Part shown: in pieces, positions 29,999 through 38,522 of the stretch
Numbering within the stretch: the first letter of the stretch is position 1
How the letters are laid out: each line of letters begins with the position of its first letter
DNA from: Candidatus Obscuribacterales bacterium
Lineage (GTDB): Bacteria; Cyanobacteriota; Vampirovibrionia; Obscuribacterales; Obscuribacteraceae
DNA length: 64,000 bases
Assembly (NCBI GenBank): GCA_949127735.1
Contig: CASBPX010000027.1
Span: forward strand, 32,578-96,577
Reading direction: 5' to 3'
The notes under the pieces: generated by a model
Told to the model about the DNA's origin: nothing
Database searches by the model: none
Seen by the model: only the letters and a program-made list of their open reading frames with translations
Program-made: the position numbers and the translations under genes

Positions 29999-30060
29999 AA
30001 AAGCGCACTGAAAAAAGTTTTCTAGATGTTGGCGCACTGGAAACTTTAGAGGTGAACAAA

Positions 30061-30987
30061 ATGTACGAAATAGATTATCAAATAGATCAAATTGATCAAC
30101 TAGGTCAAATAGATCAAGTTGACGAGTTAACAATCGTCAAAACCGATGACCCTGCGGCCAATAGCGAAGCGGCATTGACTGCCTATTTGCAAAATATCGG
30201 TAAGACCAGCCTGATTAAAGCGAATGAAGAAATCGAGCTTGGCCGAGCCATACGCCAGGGCGATAATGCCGCTCTTTCCAAACTAGTGGTCAGTAATCTC
30301 AGGCTTGTAGTCAGCATAGCCAAACGGTTTCGTAACCAGGGTATGGATATGGAAGACATGATTCAGGAAGGCAATCTGGGCCTAATTCATGCCGCCAAAA
30401 AATTCGACCCCACTATGGGAAACCGATTTTCCACCTATGCAACATGGTGGATTCGTGAGTCTGTTAATCGTGCCATTGCCAACAAGGGCCGCACGATACG
30501 CATACCGGTGCACATCAGAACGCAAATGGGACGCCTCAAAAGAGTGGCGAAAGAGTATTTGCAATCGCATAACCGCTTCCCAACTGAGGCCGAATTGGCC
30601 GTAGCCCTTGAGTGCCAACCTGAAGAAATTGTCAGATTGGTCAGCAGCTCCAGCAGCATTGTGTCGCTCGACGAGCCGGTGAGCGGCGCTGAAAAAGACA
30701 CGCTTGAGTGTTTTATCGAAGACCAGTTCTCAGCCATGCCAGAACAAGCGGCCGAACAAGCCATGCTCAGGCGCGGTATTGACCGAATGACAGCGCAGCT
30801 GAGCAACTTAGAGAAGACCGCTATCAGCTACCTGTATGGTCTGGAAGGGGACGGTCTTTATGACGCAAAAATGGTTGCCGCCAAGCTCAATATTGATGTG
30901 GCAGAGCTAAGGCGCATCCAAAAACGCTCGTTAAAGAAGCTCAGACGGCATCTCCACAACAAATCTTTGAACGATTTCATCTCCTAG
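30061..30987 (+). CDS. RNA polymerase sigma-70 family (group 2-like) sigma factor
   Basis: GAGGTG SD before ATG 30061; LVVSNLRLVVSIAKRFRNQGMDMEDMIQEGNLGLIHAAKKFDPTMGNRFSTYATWWIRESVNRAI; N-terminal IDQ repeats. Confidence 0.93.
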   Translation: MYEIDYQIDQIDQLGQIDQVDELTIVKTDDPAANSEAALTAYLQNIGKTSLIKANEEIELGRAIRQGDNAALSKLVVSNLRLVVSIAKRFRNQGMDMEDMIQEGNLGLIHAAKKFDPTMGNRFSTYATWWIRESVNRAIANKGRTIRIPVHIRTQMGRLKRVAKEYLQSHNRFPTEAELAVALECQPEEIVRLVSSSSSIVSLDEPVSGAEKDTLECFIEDQFSAMPEQAAEQAMLRRGIDRMTAQLSNLEKTAISYLYGLEGDGLYDAKMVAAKLNIDVAELRRIQKRSLKKLRRHLHNKSLNDFIS

Positions 30988-31006
30988 CCGTTCACTAGCC
31001 GTTCAC
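30985..31006. repeat. 11-bp tandem duplication of stop-codon region
   Basis: tagccgttcac|tagccgttcac; the first TAG is the sigma-factor stop. Confidence 0.9.
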
Positions 31007-31096
31007 GATGCCAGGTTAAATTGAATATGCCGACATCTAGAAACAGTCAAAAACAGCTCAAGAAGCCGGTTAATCACGTAACAAATTCTTTACGAG

Positions 31097-31261
31097 ATGT
31101 CCCGTCGCAACGCTGGCAGGAAGATAATAAGCCATCCCTCCGGAGTGTTCATTTTTATGACTCTTGCCAGTTTGGCCATTGTTGTCCTGGGAACGATAAT
31201 TTGCACATTGATCAATGATTTCACCACGATGGGTGGTGATTACATTGAAGAAAATCCGTAG
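31097..31261 (+). CDS. Candidate 54-aa single-TM microprotein
   Basis: MSRRNAGRKIISHPSGVFIFMTLASLAIVVLGTIICTLINDFTTMGGDYIEENP*; basic N-terminus, one TM helix, acidic tail; below the ORF-track cutoff. Confidence 0.5.
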   Translation: MSRRNAGRKIISHPSGVFIFMTLASLAIVVLGTIICTLINDFTTMGGDYIEENP

Positions 31262-31362
31262 TGAAATCACAAAGCGCTACGAGCATATAGACTGGCAAAT
31301 AATGCCACCACCTGTGATGCCACATTATTTGCTGGCAAATAGCAATACTTGAAAAATAGCGC

Positions 31363-31391
31363 TTGACATAAATTGCGGGCGCTACTATCCT
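31363..31391 (+). promoter_or_regulatory. Sigma-70-like promoter of the rtcB leader region
   Basis: TTGACA (31363-31368), 17-bp spacer, TATCCT (31386-31391). Confidence 0.5.
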
Positions 31392-31402
31392 GGAAATATG
31401 TA

Positions 31403-31444
31403 TTGACCTTGAGCTGCTCCCCACGAGGAGCTTTTTTCGGTCAA
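31403..31444 (+). terminator. Attenuator-like hairpin with nested outer stem
   Basis: GCTCC-ccacga-GGAGC followed by TTTTTT (31416-31437), enclosed by TTGACC (31403-31408) / GGTCAA (31439-31444). Confidence 0.5.
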
Positions 31445-31467
31445 ACTGTTAAGACGAGGACAGCGCC

Positions 31468-31620
31468 ATGTTTCGGCCAACCATCAGCATCGTTAGACGA
31501 GATTGCCGCGGAATTCTATGCGGCTCGCATTCTAACGAGCAGGTCTTTTCAGTGAGCAAAAATTTCAAAGGCAGTTACGTCAATATGCCGACGGTGACCA
31601 CACCGATACTGCGAGCGTAA
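31468..31620 (+). CDS. Candidate 50-aa ORF in rtcB leader region
   Basis: GAGGA SD, 7-nt spacing, ATG; MFRPTISIVRRDCRGILCGSHSNEQVFSVSKNFKGSYVNMPTVTTPILRA*. Confidence 0.35.
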   Translation: MFRPTISIVRRDCRGILCGSHSNEQVFSVSKNFKGSYVNMPTVTTPILRA

Positions 31621-31998
31621 ACCTTTTAAAACATAGATAGTTAGCGGTTTTTGCTGCTTCATCGCTTGATGAAACAGGGTCAATTCATGGCAAAGAATTA
31701 CCAAATTACCGAATAACTAATTGCATTGAAGCAAATTTTCCATCCGCCTGAAAGCCGGCTGACGCTTCAATGCGGCACCGCCGGTGATATCGCTGGCGAT
31801 ACCCTAACACTCGGAGGAACTGATATGAGGTTCATGATCGAAGCCATTAATCCTGCTCGCCTGATGAGGCGATTTATCGTTGAGCATGTATTTGTACATG
31901 CCGGTTACCGCGAATACGGTAATTGCAACAGCGATGCCGATAATGCCACCACCGTTGCAGAGCATGCCGACGGCGCGGTCATCGAGATTAAGTCGATG
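31487..31998 (+). ncRNA. Candidate structured RNA / highly structured leader upstream of rtcB
   Basis: Succession of perfect or near-perfect stems, including TCGTTAGA/TCTAACGA, GCATTGAAGC/GCTTCAATGC, TCGCCT-GATG-AGGCGA, GCATGTA-TTTG-TACATGC, TTACCG-CGAATA-CGGTAA, CATCGA-gattaag-TCGATG. Confidence 0.4.
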
Positions 31999-32034
31999 TT
32001 GCAGCTAACTCTACAGCTCAGTGACACTGTATAA
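31825..32034 (+). CDS. Candidate 69-aa protein directly upstream of rtcB
   Basis: GGAGG SD with 7-nt spacing before ATG 31825; MRFMIEAINPARLMRRFIVEHVFVHAGYREYGNCNSDADNATTVAEHADGAVIEIKSMLQLTLQLSDTV. Alternative to the longer TTG ORF 31726..32034. Confidence 0.45.
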   Translation: MRFMIEAINPARLMRRFIVEHVFVHAGYREYGNCNSDADNATTVAEHADGAVIEIKSMLQLTLQLSDTV

Positions 32035-32062
32035 GTTAAAATCAAAAAAAAGAGATAGATAA

Positions 32063-33319
32063 ATGAACAGCGAAAAAATTCACCTCGATAGCTCTCACGA
32101 AGACTACGAGATGATCAAAATCAAAGAAAGAAAGCCAATCAAGGCCTGGGTTAAGGGTGTTGCACTAGAACAACCTGCGCTCCAGCAACTGATCAATCTC
32201 GCTTCCATGCCTTTCATTCACAAGCATATCGCGGTTATGCCCGATGCTCATATGGGTAAGGGCACTACTGTCGGTACAGTTATTCCAACTTTTAAGGCAA
32301 TCATTCCTGCTGCTGTTGGAGTCGACTTAGGGTGCGGCATGATTGCTATTGCCACCAGTTTGAAGGCCACCGATTTGCCTGATAATCTCAAGGTTCTAAG
32401 AAATGCCATTGAGAACGCAGTGCCAGTTGGTGCTGGTTTCTGGCGCAACGATTTGGCTGGCAACCATCCGGCTCAAAAGCCGGTTAATCAAGCCTGGGCT
32501 TCCCTGGCTGATAGATGGGATGTAATTGCTGAGAAGCATCCACAAGTTGATATCGGCCAAAATCGCAACCGTCTACAGCTAGGTACACTTGGATCTGGCA
32601 ATCACTTCATCGAGATTTTGCTCGATGGCAGTGAAAATGTCTGGTTCATGCTGCACTCAGGTAGCCGTGGCGTGGGCAACCGCATCGGTACTTATTTCAT
32701 CGACCTGGCTCGCAAAGAAATGGCAAAGAACCAAATTCATTTGCCCGATCAAGATCTGGCCTACCTTTCAGAAGGAGCCGTATATTTTGACGACTATCTT
32801 TTTGCCGTTCAATGGGCGCAAGATTATGCCTATTTGAACAGGCAGGTAATGATGGGACAAGTCATTGCTGCGCTTAAAGCCACTGGTCTGCTACCCGAAT
32901 TCGAAGCAGAAGCACAAGTGATCAACTGCCACCACAACTATGTGACCAGAGAAATTCACTTCGGTGAAGATGTCTGGGTAACCAGAAAGGGTGCAGTCAG
33001 AGCGCAGCTTGGCGATTGGGGCATCATCCCAGGATCTATGGGTGTAGGTTCTTATATCGTCAAGGGCAAGGGTAACGCTCAGAGCTTCAACAGCTGTTCA
33101 CACGGCGCAGGTCGCACCATGTCGCGTACACAAGCAAGAAAGAAAATTTCTCTTGAACGCCATGCTGAGGACACCGCCCATGTAGAGTGCCGCAAGGACG
33201 AAGGAATTCTTGATGAATCGCCTTCAGCCTACAAGCCACTAGATGCGGTGATGGCTGCTCAAGCGAGTTTGGTTGAAATTGTGCACAAACTCAGACCCCT
33301 GGTTTGTGTCAAGGGATGA
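32063..33319 (+). CDS. rtcB: RNA-splicing ligase RtcB
   Basis: VMPDAHMGKGTTVG, VDLGCGMIAI, LGSGNHFIEI, INCHHNYV, CSHGAGRTMSR. Confidence 0.96.
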   Translation: MNSEKIHLDSSHEDYEMIKIKERKPIKAWVKGVALEQPALQQLINLASMPFIHKHIAVMPDAHMGKGTTVGTVIPTFKAIIPAAVGVDLGCGMIAIATSLKATDLPDNLKVLRNAIENAVPVGAGFWRNDLAGNHPAQKPVNQAWASLADRWDVIAEKHPQVDIGQNRNRLQLGTLGSGNHFIEILLDGSENVWFMLHSGSRGVGNRIGTYFIDLARKEMAKNQIHLPDQDLAYLSEGAVYFDDYLFAVQWAQDYAYLNRQVMMGQVIAALKATGLLPEFEAEAQVINCHHNYVTREIHFGEDVWVTRKGAVRAQLGDWGIIPGSMGVGSYIVKGKGNAQSFNSCSHGAGRTMSRTQARKKISLERHAEDTAHVECRKDEGILDESPSAYKPLDAVMAAQASLVEIVHKLRPLVCVKG

Positions 33320-33450: not shown

Positions 33451-35355
33451 ATGTTCTGCAGCACCGACAGCCTCATTGATGAACGCTACCAGATTGTCAC
33501 CACAATCGGGCAGGGTGGCTCTGGCAGAGTTTATCTAATTGTTGATCTTGTGCGCAGTCGCCAGTTGGCGCTGAAAACTCTAGAACTCAATCTTGACCAA
33601 CAGATATCCTGGGCCAGATTTGAAAGGGAGGCACGCATTGCCAGCCGCTTAAATCATCCACATATCGCCCGCGTTTATGATTTTGGTCTGCTCGATAAAA
33701 AATTGCCTTACCTGGTAATGGAACTGGTGCACGGTCAAACACTTTTTGATCGGGTGAAAAATAATGGTCCACTGACAGGACATGAGACATTAATAGTGTT
33801 CAAGGCCATGGCAAGCGCCTTGCTTTACGCTCACGGGCTCAATATTATTCATCGCGATATCAAGCCGGCCAATATTATACTGACCACTGATATGCACGGA
33901 GAAATCACGGGAGCAAAACTGATCGATTTTGGCCTTTCAAAATGTGGTGGTGGCACAGAGTTTGCCCAATCACTTACAGCCACCGGTGAAGTTTTTGGCA
34001 GTCCTTACTATATGAGCCCCGAACAATGGAATGGCGAGACGCTGTCTGCCAGCGCCGATATGTACTCATTGGGCGTCTCCCTGTTCGAGACCTTAAGCGG
34101 CAATGTGCCCTACCAAGGAGAAAACGCCTTCGCCACAGCCCTGCTTCATACAACCAAGCCTGTGCCATATCTCGGTGATTTGAGTAATCCGCCGGACAAT
34201 CATGCTAACTGGGACTTGATCCTGCAAAAAATGCTGGCAAAAACTCCAGAACGGCGTTATGAGAATATGGCTGATCTAAATGATGACCTCAATCGTCTCT
34301 CTCAATGCCAAAGAATCGACAGTGAAGTCATAAGGGCAAGTTCCGCTCCTTCTTCGAGCTTCCTGGCACCACTTTCAGATCACAAGAGCAAGCTTCTGTG
34401 GGCCTTAATTTTCATAACCTTTTTGATATTGTCAGCTTTTGCTACTCTGATTTTTAATGCTTTTCCAAGTACAGTCGGCTACAACAAGAGCGAAGCTGAT
34501 TCAGAGCAACTGCCGATTCCAGGCATCACCAGAACCCTGCACACATACACTGTGGTCAGGGATCTGACCGAGGAAGGTCAAACTCGTTTTTATTTCCCAG
34601 AAAACAGCATGGGTAAATTCAAAGCTGGTGAATACACAATTAATGCTAGTGGAGTAGTGATACTGCCTATGCACCTGCCGCTCAAATTTAGCCCCAATGA
34701 GCTTTTCTTACAGCAACCTCACCTATTTCAAAATTTCCACCCAAATGACCTGGCAGAGCTTTCTATCAAAGGCTGCCCCGTTGAATTCAACGATCGGGCC
34801 ATGGAATATATCGGCTCCCTGACCGGCCTGAAGTCTCTGGAAGTAAAAAATTGTGCCATCACGTCAAAGTCAATTAATACATTGAATCAGCTCCCCAGTC
34901 TGACCGAAATGGTTTTAGAAGATACAGATATACAAGGTTCTGATTTACTAAAATTCAATCGACTAAAAGAACTGAAGACCTTAGAAGTGTGCGATATAGC
35001 TGATGTTCGCAATGTATTGCCGACCTTGAAAAATAACCAACACATAAAACATCTGGCACTCAACAACGATAACTTGCAAAATCAAGACCTAAAAATAATC
35101 AGTTCGTTAAGCAATCTTGAATTTCTGGAACTGAACGCCAACAAACAAATTGATGAAGACGGGCTTCGTTTGCTGGCCGATTTACCTAAGTTAACACGAC
35201 TTTCCATCTCTCATATTGCTTTCGATCCGAGCTGCTCGAAAACTCTGGCAAAATTCAAACAACTAAAAATACTTGCAATTGGCACCCACCATTGGTCCGC
35301 CAGTGAAGTTGCCGCACTAAAAAGAGCTCTTCCCCTCTGTATCATCAACCCTTAA
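33451..35355 (+). CDS. Ser/Thr protein kinase - TM - leucine-rich-repeat protein
   Basis: ERYQIVTTIGQGGSGRVYLI, IIHRDIKPANIIL, DFGLSK, GSPYYMSPEQ; TM LLWALIFITFLILSAFATLIF; C-terminal LRRs (LTGLKSLEVKNCAIT..., LSNLEFLELNANKQID...). Confidence 0.92.
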   Translation: MFCSTDSLIDERYQIVTTIGQGGSGRVYLIVDLVRSRQLALKTLELNLDQQISWARFEREARIASRLNHPHIARVYDFGLLDKKLPYLVMELVHGQTLFDRVKNNGPLTGHETLIVFKAMASALLYAHGLNIIHRDIKPANIILTTDMHGEITGAKLIDFGLSKCGGGTEFAQSLTATGEVFGSPYYMSPEQWNGETLSASADMYSLGVSLFETLSGNVPYQGENAFATALLHTTKPVPYLGDLSNPPDNHANWDLILQKMLAKTPERRYENMADLNDDLNRLSQCQRIDSEVIRASSAPSSSFLAPLSDHKSKLLWALIFITFLILSAFATLIFNAFPSTVGYNKSEADSEQLPIPGITRTLHTYTVVRDLTEEGQTRFYFPENSMGKFKAGEYTINASGVVILPMHLPLKFSPNELFLQQPHLFQNFHPNDLAELSIKGCPVEFNDRAMEYIGSLTGLKSLEVKNCAITSKSINTLNQLPSLTEMVLEDTDIQGSDLLKFNRLKELKTLEVCDIADVRNVLPTLKNNQHIKHLALNNDNLQNQDLKIISSLSNLEFLELNANKQIDEDGLRLLADLPKLTRLSISHIAFDPSCSKTLAKFKQLKILAIGTHHWSASEVAALKRALPLCIINP

Positions 35356-35379
35356 TTGCTGTACGTCTTAATTGCTGTA
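35351..35379. repeat. 16-bp-period tandem repeat carrying both convergent stop codons
   Basis: cttaattgctgta at 35351-35363 and 35367-35379. Confidence 0.9.
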
Positions 35380-36891
35380 AGCCTTAACCGGCATCTTTTC
35401 TCTGGCAACGGCTTGCTGCTTGAGCCACTGTTGGGCGTCCAGTCCGGCAGTGCGTCTTCTATCTGGTGTACCATGCAAAACAGACTGTATTGCCGGCATT
35501 CCCCGATTGCCATGGTCATCCCAGGCATGCTGTCCATTTTTAATTACTTCCACCACCACTGGGGCACCTTTGCAGTTGTACTCGCTAGTAACCACATCGG
35601 CTTTAACTACAGTTTTGGCATCGGCCTCACAGTCGTTTGCGGCGGCCCATACTTTTTCTTGTTTCAGGGGTTGTGAAAGCTCGAGATTGGTTTTAATCAT
35701 CCAGTCCATTTTCTTACTGATATCGCCCATGCCACCTTTAAGTGGAAGAGTCTGATCATCTGAGCCAAGCACGATTTTAATTGGCATTGATTGGCGTGGG
35801 GCTTGTTCTCCGCTCATCCAGGTGCCGTGGCTGCTATAAACTCCTGAAACCTGATTGGGGCGCTCAGTAGCGTAGACTTGAGCAAATCTGGCACCATCGC
35901 TGAAGCCTGCCAGGCCCACTTGATCAGCTATCGAAACCTGAGTTTTCACAGTTTTGATTACCTGGTCGAGATAGTCGACATCGCTGTATGACTTGTTTTC
36001 TTGAGCAGGCAAATTAATGCGCCCGGGAACATTCCAAACAGCACCAGTGTTTGCACCGACTGCGTTAGCTAGACGGCCTGCATCAAAAGTATTCAATTTG
36101 GGATAAGCGAATACAACGATGCTGCCGGTGCGCTCGGCGGCGGCAATCATGCCCATTTCTTCACGAGGCAGCCCAGCACCTTCACCAGCTGCAGCACCAT
36201 GCATAGCTATAACCATGGGGGCCCGAGAATCTGCGTTTTTAGGCACGTATATTTCATAGTGACGATCGCCGACTTCGACGTCATTGACTTCACCAACTTT
36301 TAAATTGCTACCGGCCTTAAGCAACTGATCGCCAGTAACGCGGAATTCTTGTGGTACGTCATTACTTTTCTTTTCATCCATCAGCATTTGGAAACGAGCA
36401 TTTTCAGCCGGGCTGGCAATGCGACGCATTTGTTCGGTGAGATTCAACATTTCTACTTTATTGCTACCGAACCTGATGCCGTATTTGTTGGTGTACAAAT
36501 CGTCAATACGCTTAATTTCTTCTGGTGTTTTATTTTCTAGAATTTTATAGATTTTGTTGAAGTCGTGTCCAGAGCCCAACAGTCGTGCTGGCGAATATTT
36601 ACTGGTAGCATTGAAGGCCGAGTCCAGCTCTTTGGCGGCAGCTTCCATTTTAGCCTGGTCTACAGGCCACTTAGTAGCATAAGAAGTTTTCTCAGAACGA
36701 TCATCACCGTTGAATAAATCATCAAACTTAGGCAAATAACGGTCAGCAGAAGAAGGCTCCAGGTCTTTGCCGGACCGGACAGGAGATGAAGAATAGATAT
36801 CTTGCACCATTTTTCCCATCGACTCGGAAAAACGCGACGAAGTCGACTCGGCTGCTTCAGGCCTCTCTGCGGTTGCGCGGTCATTTGCCAT
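35368..36891 (-). CDS. PHB-depolymerase/esterase-like alpha/beta hydrolase (paralog 1)
   Basis: YEIYVPKNADSRAPMVIAMHGAAAGEGAGL, LAGFSDGARFA nucleophile elbow, GQHAWDDHGN. Confidence 0.85.
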   Translation of the reverse strand: MANDRATAERPEAAESTSSRFSESMGKMVQDIYSSSPVRSGKDLEPSSADRYLPKFDDLFNGDDRSEKTSYATKWPVDQAKMEAAAKELDSAFNATSKYSPARLLGSGHDFNKIYKILENKTPEEIKRIDDLYTNKYGIRFGSNKVEMLNLTEQMRRIASPAENARFQMLMDEKKSNDVPQEFRVTGDQLLKAGSNLKVGEVNDVEVGDRHYEIYVPKNADSRAPMVIAMHGAAAGEGAGLPREEMGMIAAAERTGSIVVFAYPKLNTFDAGRLANAVGANTGAVWNVPGRINLPAQENKSYSDVDYLDQVIKTVKTQVSIADQVGLAGFSDGARFAQVYATERPNQVSGVYSSHGTWMSGEQAPRQSMPIKIVLGSDDQTLPLKGGMGDISKKMDWMIKTNLELSQPLKQEKVWAAANDCEADAKTVVKADVVTSEYNCKGAPVVVEVIKNGQHAWDDHGNRGMPAIQSVLHGTPDRRRTAGLDAQQWLKQQAVAREKMPVKAYSN

Positions 36892-36949
36892 ATCGATTGC
36901 CGTCCCTGGTAAGTAGTCTCAGACTATTACATCGTCAGGGCAATACGGG

Positions 36950-36971
36950 GGCAGATTATTGGCAGGTTATT
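36950..36971. repeat. 11-bp tandem repeat downstream of an esterase stop
   Basis: ggcagattatt|ggcaggttatt|ggcag. Confidence 0.8.
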
Positions 36972-36986
36972 GGCAGCTCAAAACGC

Positions 36987-38522
36987 TTACCGGCTGAGGC
37001 GTTTCTCAATTTTCACCGGCAGGCCGCCGCGAGATTCTCCTTGCTGCTTAAGCCACCTTTGGGCATCAAGTGAAAGGGTGCGAGTGCGATCGGCACTGCC
37101 GTGCAAAACTGATTGTATGAGTGGATTGCCACGATTTCCGTGGTCATCCCAGGCGTGTTGCCCGGTGTTGTATACATTCACCACCACCGGAGCACCTTTA
37201 CAGGAGTAATCGGTCACGGTTACGGCAGGCTTAATCACCACTCTTGGCTTGTCATCGCATTCGTTGGTGTTGGCCCACACTTTCTCAATGTCGCGTGGAC
37301 GGGAAAGAGCTAAATTAGTAGCCACCACTTTATTCATAAAATTGCTGACACTACCCATGCCACCATCGATAGGCAGAGTTCGATCGTCTTTGCTAAGAAC
37401 CACTTTAATCGGAACAGGCACCAGAGGTAGTGCCTCTCCTTCCATCCAGGTACTGTGTGAGCTGTATACGCCAGTAACTTTATCAGGACGTTCGGAGGCA
37501 TAAATCTGAGCCAATCTCCCCCCATCACTGAACCCGGCAAGCCCCACGCGGTCGGCCGTTTGCACCTGAGTTTGCACATTTTTTACGATGTTGTCGAGAT
37601 AGTCAATGTCGCTATACGAACGGTCTTCCTCAGCCGGCAAATTAATCCGCCCAGGAACATTCCAGGCGGCACCGGTGTTAGCGCCAATTGTGTTGAAAAC
37701 GGTGCCGGCATCAAAGGAGCGTACTTTGGGATAACCGAAGAGCACAATACTGCCTGTACGTTCAGCAGCTGCCACCATCCCCATCTCTTCACGAGGCAAG
37801 CCAGGGCCATCACCACCAGCGGCGCCGTGCATGGCAATAATCACCGGTGCGCGGGAGTCGGCATTTTTAGGCACGTATACTTCAAAATGGCGATCACCCA
37901 TTTTAATATCGGTGACTTCACCAACCTTGATTTTGCTGCCGGGTTTGAGTAGTTGATCACCACTAATGCGAAACTGTTCAGGAACGTCGTTATTTCTTTT
38001 GTCGTTCATAAGCATGTCGTAACGCGCGACTTCAGATTCAGTGGCGCTGCGCTGCATTTGTTCTTTGATACCAAAGCGCTCTCCGTTCGACGCCAGGTCA
38101 GGGCCATAAGTTCTGGCATAAATTCCGTCGATTGCCTTTATTTCTTCAGGCGTCTTGTTTTCAAGAATTTTGTAGGCTTGATTGAAATCGTATCCCCAAC
38201 CGGTTTTCTTGCTGTCAAACAAACGCGATGGGGCGTAATACCAGCTGGAATTAAAAGCATCATTAAGTTGCTTAGCGGCCTCTTCCATCTTCGCCTGGTC
38301 AACGGGCCATTTAGTGCCCGCTGTGCTCTCTGGCGTTTTAAATATAGTGAGACTCTCGTATTTAGGCAGTAAGTCAACTGCATTGCCCGGCGGCACCTGC
38401 TCGATTTTGGTTCCAGCGCGATAAGCGCCGGTATCGTTGGCGTTAAGGGGCGCAATGTCGGCAGTCTGTTGAGCCTTGTCTGGCTTTTCCTGAGAATCCA
38501 AAGAACCATTCAGAGTAGCCAT
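36987..38522 (-). CDS. PHB-depolymerase/esterase-like alpha/beta hydrolase (paralog 2)
   Basis: Extensive collinear similarity to 35368..36891 (FEVYVPKNADSRAPVIIAMHGAAGGDGPGLPREEMGM, LAGFSDGGRLAQIYASERP). Confidence 0.85.
   Translation of the reverse strand: MATLNGSLDSQEKPDKAQQTADIAPLNANDTGAYRAGTKIEQVPPGNAVDLLPKYESLTIFKTPESTAGTKWPVDQAKMEEAAKQLNDAFNSSWYYAPSRLFDSKKTGWGYDFNQAYKILENKTPEEIKAIDGIYARTYGPDLASNGERFGIKEQMQRSATESEVARYDMLMNDKRNNDVPEQFRISGDQLLKPGSKIKVGEVTDIKMGDRHFEVYVPKNADSRAPVIIAMHGAAGGDGPGLPREEMGMVAAAERTGSIVLFGYPKVRSFDAGTVFNTIGANTGAAWNVPGRINLPAEEDRSYSDIDYLDNIVKNVQTQVQTADRVGLAGFSDGGRLAQIYASERPDKVTGVYSSHSTWMEGEALPLVPVPIKVVLSKDDRTLPIDGGMGSVSNFMNKVVATNLALSRPRDIEKVWANTNECDDKPRVVIKPAVTVTDYSCKGAPVVVNVYNTGQHAWDDHGNRGNPLIQSVLHGSADRTRTLSLDAQRWLKQQGESRGGLPVKIEKRLSR

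Follow-up and report, generated by a model that had tools for sequence, protein, structure and literature searches.

Positions 31400–32040 of the 64,000-nt stretch of Candidatus Obscuribacterales DNA analyzed here (the window; the host belongs to the non-photosynthetic Cyanobacteriota) are, we believe with a probability of roughly 0.7, the 5' part of the rtcB operon, in which a conserved small reading frame, ORF B, is coupled to rtcB and the many hairpins are mostly incidental. A first-pass annotation, made from the sequence alone, had described a dense array of stem-loops at this place and proposed a new RNA class, an RtcB substrate or a structured leader. We favor an operon start over a new RNA class because most of the stems are located within tiny genes or next to them, and the closest relative has lost them. 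The idea of a leader carries over, in that the stretch forms the 5' portion of an operon whose promoter is conserved, and the supposed RNA class gives way to a concrete, testable gene arrangement.

The rtcB gene (32063–33319, + strand) encodes a 418-aa RNA 3'-phosphate ligase (Pfam PF01139, E = 1.2 × 10–125). Upstream on the same strand lies a gene for a sigma-70 family sigma factor (RpoD/SigA-like, 30052–30987; Pfam Sigma70_r2, r3 and r1_2), whose top NCBIfam match was TIGR02997, although below the TIGR02997 cut-off. Synteny with this neighbor is kept in related genera. Between the window's own genome (G000) and its nearest relative (G003, RtcB 93% identical), changes in the sigma gene are distributed 16:2:1 over codon positions 3:1:2. 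The order sigma gene, ORF A, promoter, ORF C, ORF B, rtcB was found in all five same-genus genomes that have this rtcB, and the order from sigma to rtcB recurs in L039/G062, L126/G049 and L127/G050, with ORF C of L039 called by position only. An alignment of the sigma-to-rtcB interval from five same-genus genomes showed conserved islands at ORF A, the promoter, the first part of ORF B and the rtcB start. Genera with a more distant RtcB (~57% identity) have a TTGACA motif upstream of rtcB and gave no ORF B call.

A consensus scan placed a sigma-70-type promoter, TTGACA-17-TATCCT, at 31363–31391 (+ strand). At the corresponding place, TTGACA is followed after 17–18 nt by TATNCT in nine loci from three genera, and in L156 as well. 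This promoter would be used by RNA polymerase carrying a sigma factor of the housekeeping type, and from the predicted start the transcript would pass through the short ORF C and the conserved small ORF B into rtcB. A stem-loop lies at the predicted transcript start (31402–31446, + strand), its outer stem TTGACC/GGTCAA surrounding GCTCC-CCACGA-GGAGC-TTTTTT. A terminator scan reported the terminator-like core GCTCC-N6-GGAGC-TTTTTT at 31416–31437, with the T-run also enclosed by the outer stem. The element takes a similar fold in G000 (–17.6 kcal/mol) and G003 (–17.0 kcal/mol), between which a C-G pair of the outer stem becomes U-G and the inner loop is altered; it is common to these two genomes only and is missing from the remaining genus members. 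On comparison of sequences it appears to be the one RNA element that holds up, in one relative, and it may protect or attenuate the transcript.

ORF B (31825–32034, + strand) is an rtcB-linked frame for a 69-aa small protein (MRFMIEAINPARLMRRFIVEHVFVHAGYREYGNC...), recognized by profile matches and codon constraint. It is preceded by a strong Shine-Dalgarno sequence as its ribosome-binding site (CGGAGGAACTGAT, 31812–31824, + strand), and a purine-rich Shine-Dalgarno sequence stands ahead of ORF B in 11 of the 11 loci listed. Seven of the nine changes between G000 and G003 in 31825–31930 fall at codon position 3 (7:1:1 for positions 3:1:2). A profile of the N-terminus (A3) matched 11 genomes from five genera with E ≤ 5 × 10–12, among 195 of the class, and 10 of these 11, G014 and G019 among them, have ORF B and rtcB on one contig, ORF B being upstream; the G015 contig that holds ORFs A, C and B runs out shortly past ORF B, and rtcB is on another contig. 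Weaker profile matches, from 5.7 × 10–5 on, are not established homologs, and the one in G048 (5.7 × 10–5) was rejected as weak and as lying on a different contig from the G048 rtcB. The conserved part of ORF B is its N-terminal ~37 residues. Because the C-terminal half is unconserved, and a 16-nt indel puts it in different frames in G000 and G003, constraint may be limited to the first ~37 codons.

No Pfam or NCBIfam family matched ORF B, and its AlphaFold model (mean pLDDT 60, pTM 0.28) was uninterpretable. Three other readings of the same DNA were discarded. The longer frame 31726–32034, taken as a single protein, is not codon-conserved in its first part, and its frame in G003 is offset by one base from ORF B. 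The – strand ORFs at 31552–31704 and 31807–31965 matched no credible Pfam family. Finally, GGCACCGCCGGTGATGCC was considered as a dispersed repeat; it outnumbers its reversed control in most of the genomes examined, but 19 of 20 fetched copies lie within ORFs of at least 80 aa, the exception being L138, at the rtcB locus.

The ORF B stop and the rtcB start overlap as ATGA in G003, L039, L126, L127 and L156; the remaining five genomes with a visible junction have spacings of 0, 23, 28, 32 and 51 nt, the rtcB start of G019 being simply the nearest in-frame ATG (G015 gave no junction call). G000 itself has no overlap, ORF B ending 28 nt ahead of rtcB. An ATGA stop/start overlap ordinarily marks translational coupling, and its presence in five genomes of four genera therefore suggests such coupling. 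ORF B combines codon constraint, a ribosome-binding site of its own and an overlap or close spacing with rtcB. Translation of rtcB would most likely occur by re-initiation after ORF B, because the ORF B ribosome-binding site is strong, that of rtcB is weak, and ATGA is seen in several relatives. We infer that ORF B serves either as a coupling leader or as a small partner protein of RtcB.

ORF C (31468–31620, + strand), which follows AAGACGAGGACAGCGCC, is a fast-evolving 50-aa leader ORF whose frame is kept. In the compared genomes it is ~50–76 aa long and close behind the promoter, and a 48-aa frame occupies the same place in L039. The peptide shows no conservation between genera, substitutions in close pairs are spread over all codon positions, and no purifying selection on the peptide was seen. 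Most spacer indels have lengths not divisible by 3, and those in ORF C measure 3, 15, 3 and 24 nt, four events being thin evidence. As a leader ORF, ORF C may matter through being translated more than through its product. The spacer that separates ORF C from ORF B (31621–31811, + strand) carries the stems at 31654–31677, 31723–31773 and 31788–31801.

Turning to the hairpins themselves, the stems named in the first-pass annotation are, on reading, present at the coordinates stated there, and their arms were located by script. Region 31400–32040 contains five perfect Watson-Crick stems (at least 6 bp, loops of 3–12 nt) compared with 1.39 ± 1.08 expected from 500 dinucleotide shuffles (P = 0.006). 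The described density is borne out to this extent, but the excess is moderate and the array mixes positions in ORF B, ORF C and the spacer. Four stems lie inside ORF B (31857–31872, 31884–31901, 31905–31922 and 31980–31998), and three of the nine stem groups fall within its codon-conserved part.

The hairpins, considered alone, might be chance palindromes picked by eye, a reading which is compatible with the operon and to which we assign a real if minority share of belief. About 2% of 641-nt windows in the same 64 kb reach five such stems, stems of at least 7 bp show no excess in 31400–32040 (1 vs 0.35, P = 0.30), and stems are lost in relatives. Chance alone, however, sits poorly with the folding energies. 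On either strand, none of 20 shuffles folded as well as the whole 641 nt (z = –2.95 on the + strand, –6.21 on the – strand). In a 160-nt scan several + strand windows were within the lowest 0.5–2.5% of the 64 kb, the extreme being z = –4.06 at 31640–31799; the strongest – strand value, z = –4.74, was at 31920–32079, opposite ORF B and the rtcB start. Mean z in the leader was –1.1 and –1.3 (n = 4 per strand) vs +0.4 and +0.3 (n = 19) in other non-coding stretches; by this measure the leader shows rather more structure than the window's few remaining non-coding stretches. Folding in excess of shuffled controls, a check suggested with the array, was thus found, but on both strands, and it is therefore not specific to the strand of a leader or ncRNA upstream of rtcB. 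The stem-loop excess is genuine but moderate, and not strand-specific.

We then followed the stems into relatives by transferring their arms through an alignment, on which the pair counts depend. Stems 31490–31538, 31723–31773, 31788–31801 and 31980–31998 are largely broken in G003. Stem 31658–31673 (TTCATC/GATGAA) is retained there with identical letters, the GCAGT/ACTGC stem (31571–31612) retains 5 of 5 pairs with one two-sided and one one-sided change, and three ORF B stems retain 5/6, 6/7 and 5/6 pairs, where codons are conserved. Almost every named stem is broken in G001, G002 and G005. The listed hairpins thus appear to be mostly lineage-specific and incidental. What incidental hairpins leave unexplained is the leader structure in excess of shuffles, which is pronounced at the sister-genus loci L126 and L127 (single-genome z = –6.7 and –5.1).

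Because these sister-genus leaders are much more structured, we retain a cis-regulatory RNA leader as a less probable alternative. The structure of the leader, namely the 5' terminator-like stem-loop and the hairpins ahead of the ORF B ribosome-binding site, would switch with a signal and set rtcB expression, for example by attenuation coupled to ORF C translation, or by cleavage and ligation by RtcB itself. The terminator-like stem-loop right behind the promoter, alike in G000 and G003, fits this alternative, as do the folding excesses in G000 (z = –4.0), G005 (–3.3), L124 (–3.2), L126 and L127, and the L126/L127 consensus fold, with z = –8.2 vs column shuffles and eight two-sided changes. 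On the other hand, there is no clear folding excess in G003 (z = –1.6) or L039 (+0.5), the – strand folds about equally well in most genomes, and no structure common to different genera was found. Two-sequence consensus folds of G000 and G003 in 220-column blocks reached z = –3.2 on the + strand, a value that coding control blocks also reach (mean –1.2, sd 1.5, minimum –5.3); all 443 columns of the G000/G003 leader alignment gave z = –4.35. The proposal had looked to covariation in homologs, and this was not seen beyond column shuffles in any of three groups: two-sided changes numbered 6 (G000/G003), 5 and 8 (L126/L127) vs shuffle means of 4.6, 7.4 and 4.9 (maximum 10 for the last), all inside the column-shuffle range. 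In the last part of the region, what we found was largely codon-level conservation and no covariation, two of the outcomes that the first-pass annotation had itself named as speaking against an RNA. Less likely again is the broader notion that Obscuribacteraceae rtcB leaders are structured cis-regulatory RNAs, recognized by RtcB or by the tRNA-damage state and acting with the rtcB-linked microprotein ORF B; such a leader, if true, would be a control route for RNA repair different from RtcR.

A free-standing structured ncRNA encoded in the sigma-to-rtcB interval, whether akin to Y RNAs or serving as an RtcB substrate, would suit the many hairpins beside rtcB and the Y RNAs encoded in some rtcBA operons (PMC7790460), but we consider it highly improbable, given no Rfam or tRNA-like match, stems that are mostly unconserved and broken in G003, and codon-level conservation of the part that is ORF B. 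Rfam at gathering score reported nothing in the 64 kb and nothing credible in seven related loci; relaxed to E = 5, it gave two weak, unrelated matches only in 31000–32100, and ARAGORN detected no tRNA or tmRNA. The first-pass annotation, too, had recognized no YrlA, tmRNA, RNase P or known riboswitch here. Nine ORFs scanned between 30052 and 35352 included no Pfam match of the Ro60 type (rsr).

The operon arrangement resembles known systems in part. In Salmonella, RtcR controls an operon in which rtcBA stands together with rsr and Y RNAs, and rtcB in rsr-yrlBA-rtcBA is likewise preceded by other operon elements, which in Salmonella include small structured RNAs (PMC7790460). The locus described here instead has a sigma-70-like promoter and small ORFs, with no RtcR, RtcA, Rsr or Y RNA among the scanned neighbors. 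Attenuated leader-peptide operons share with it a promoter, a short ORF close behind, a terminator-like hairpin and then structural genes; here, however, the hairpin precedes ORF C, is confined to the two closest genomes, and no regulatory codon run was recognized. The ORF B/rtcB overlap in five genomes of four genera is like that of ATGA-coupled gene pairs, except that the upstream gene is a tiny ORF without a known family and G000 has a 28-nt gap.

In sum, we read the locus as an otherwise ordinary operon leader carrying a small ORF family, ORF B, that is as yet unnamed and is linked to rtcB. In five genera of one non-photosynthetic family of Cyanobacteriota, this uncharacterized small-protein family stands ahead of rtcB and is apparently coupled with it. 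A literature search of partial coverage for rtcB with Melainabacteria or Obscuribacter small proteins returned no match. To our knowledge, little is known about control of bacterial rtcB outside RtcR-type operons; a leader ORF or small partner would give a way to study that control.

Upstream of the rtcB promoter, ORF A (31157–31261, + strand) forms a separate unit, a 34-aa hydrophobic microprotein (MTLASLAIVVLGTIICTLINDF..GGDYI..) with a conserved tail, ND..(x)GG[DE]. It is present in 11 of 50 family genomes, matched no Pfam or NCBIfam family, and differs from G003 by changes distributed 6:2:2 over codon positions 3:1:2, position 3 dominating. ORF A adjoins the sigma gene in G009, where the stretch read contains no rtcB, and may therefore belong with sigma rather than with rtcB. 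Between ORF A and the promoter lies the near-palindrome GCCACCACCTGTGATGCC (31304–31321), a weak candidate operator. Its dyad beats mononucleotide shuffles (P ≤ 0.05) in eight of nine genomes, the motif having been derived from G000; the independent genomes gave P = 0 (L039), 0.04 (L124), 0.11 (L126) and 0 (L127) with 300 shuffles. The near-palindrome sits in the loop of a hairpin, TGGCAAATAATG...CATTATTTGCTGGCA, at 31292–31343 downstream of ORF A, and other genera carry similar dyads ahead of their rtcB promoters.

Several further observations were made at the sister-genus loci and among the neighboring genes. The rtcB leaders at L126:1990–2700 and L127:1720–2400 (reverse strand) are very strongly structured. 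Their 3' parts are 93% identical, and ~88 nt are identical at the ORF C start, though the remaining ORF C differs widely. The L126 leader segment was considered as a repeat and rejected, being single-copy in G049 and G050 with no match in G015, G000 or G062. Directly past the sigma gene, L126 and L127 (reverse strand) have five ATTGGCAATGCTTGCC-like palindromic units, ~40–60 nt apart. The neighbors in the window include a PAS histidine kinase-like gene, named from its own sequence only, and, downstream of rtcB (33451–35355), a Ser/Thr protein kinase whose C-terminal part has leucine-rich repeats (Pfam). Beyond it, on the – strand (35368–38522), two similar neighboring genes of 507 and 511 aa have the look of secreted hydrolases and by eye resemble the poly(3-hydroxybutyrate) depolymerase/feruloyl esterase kind.
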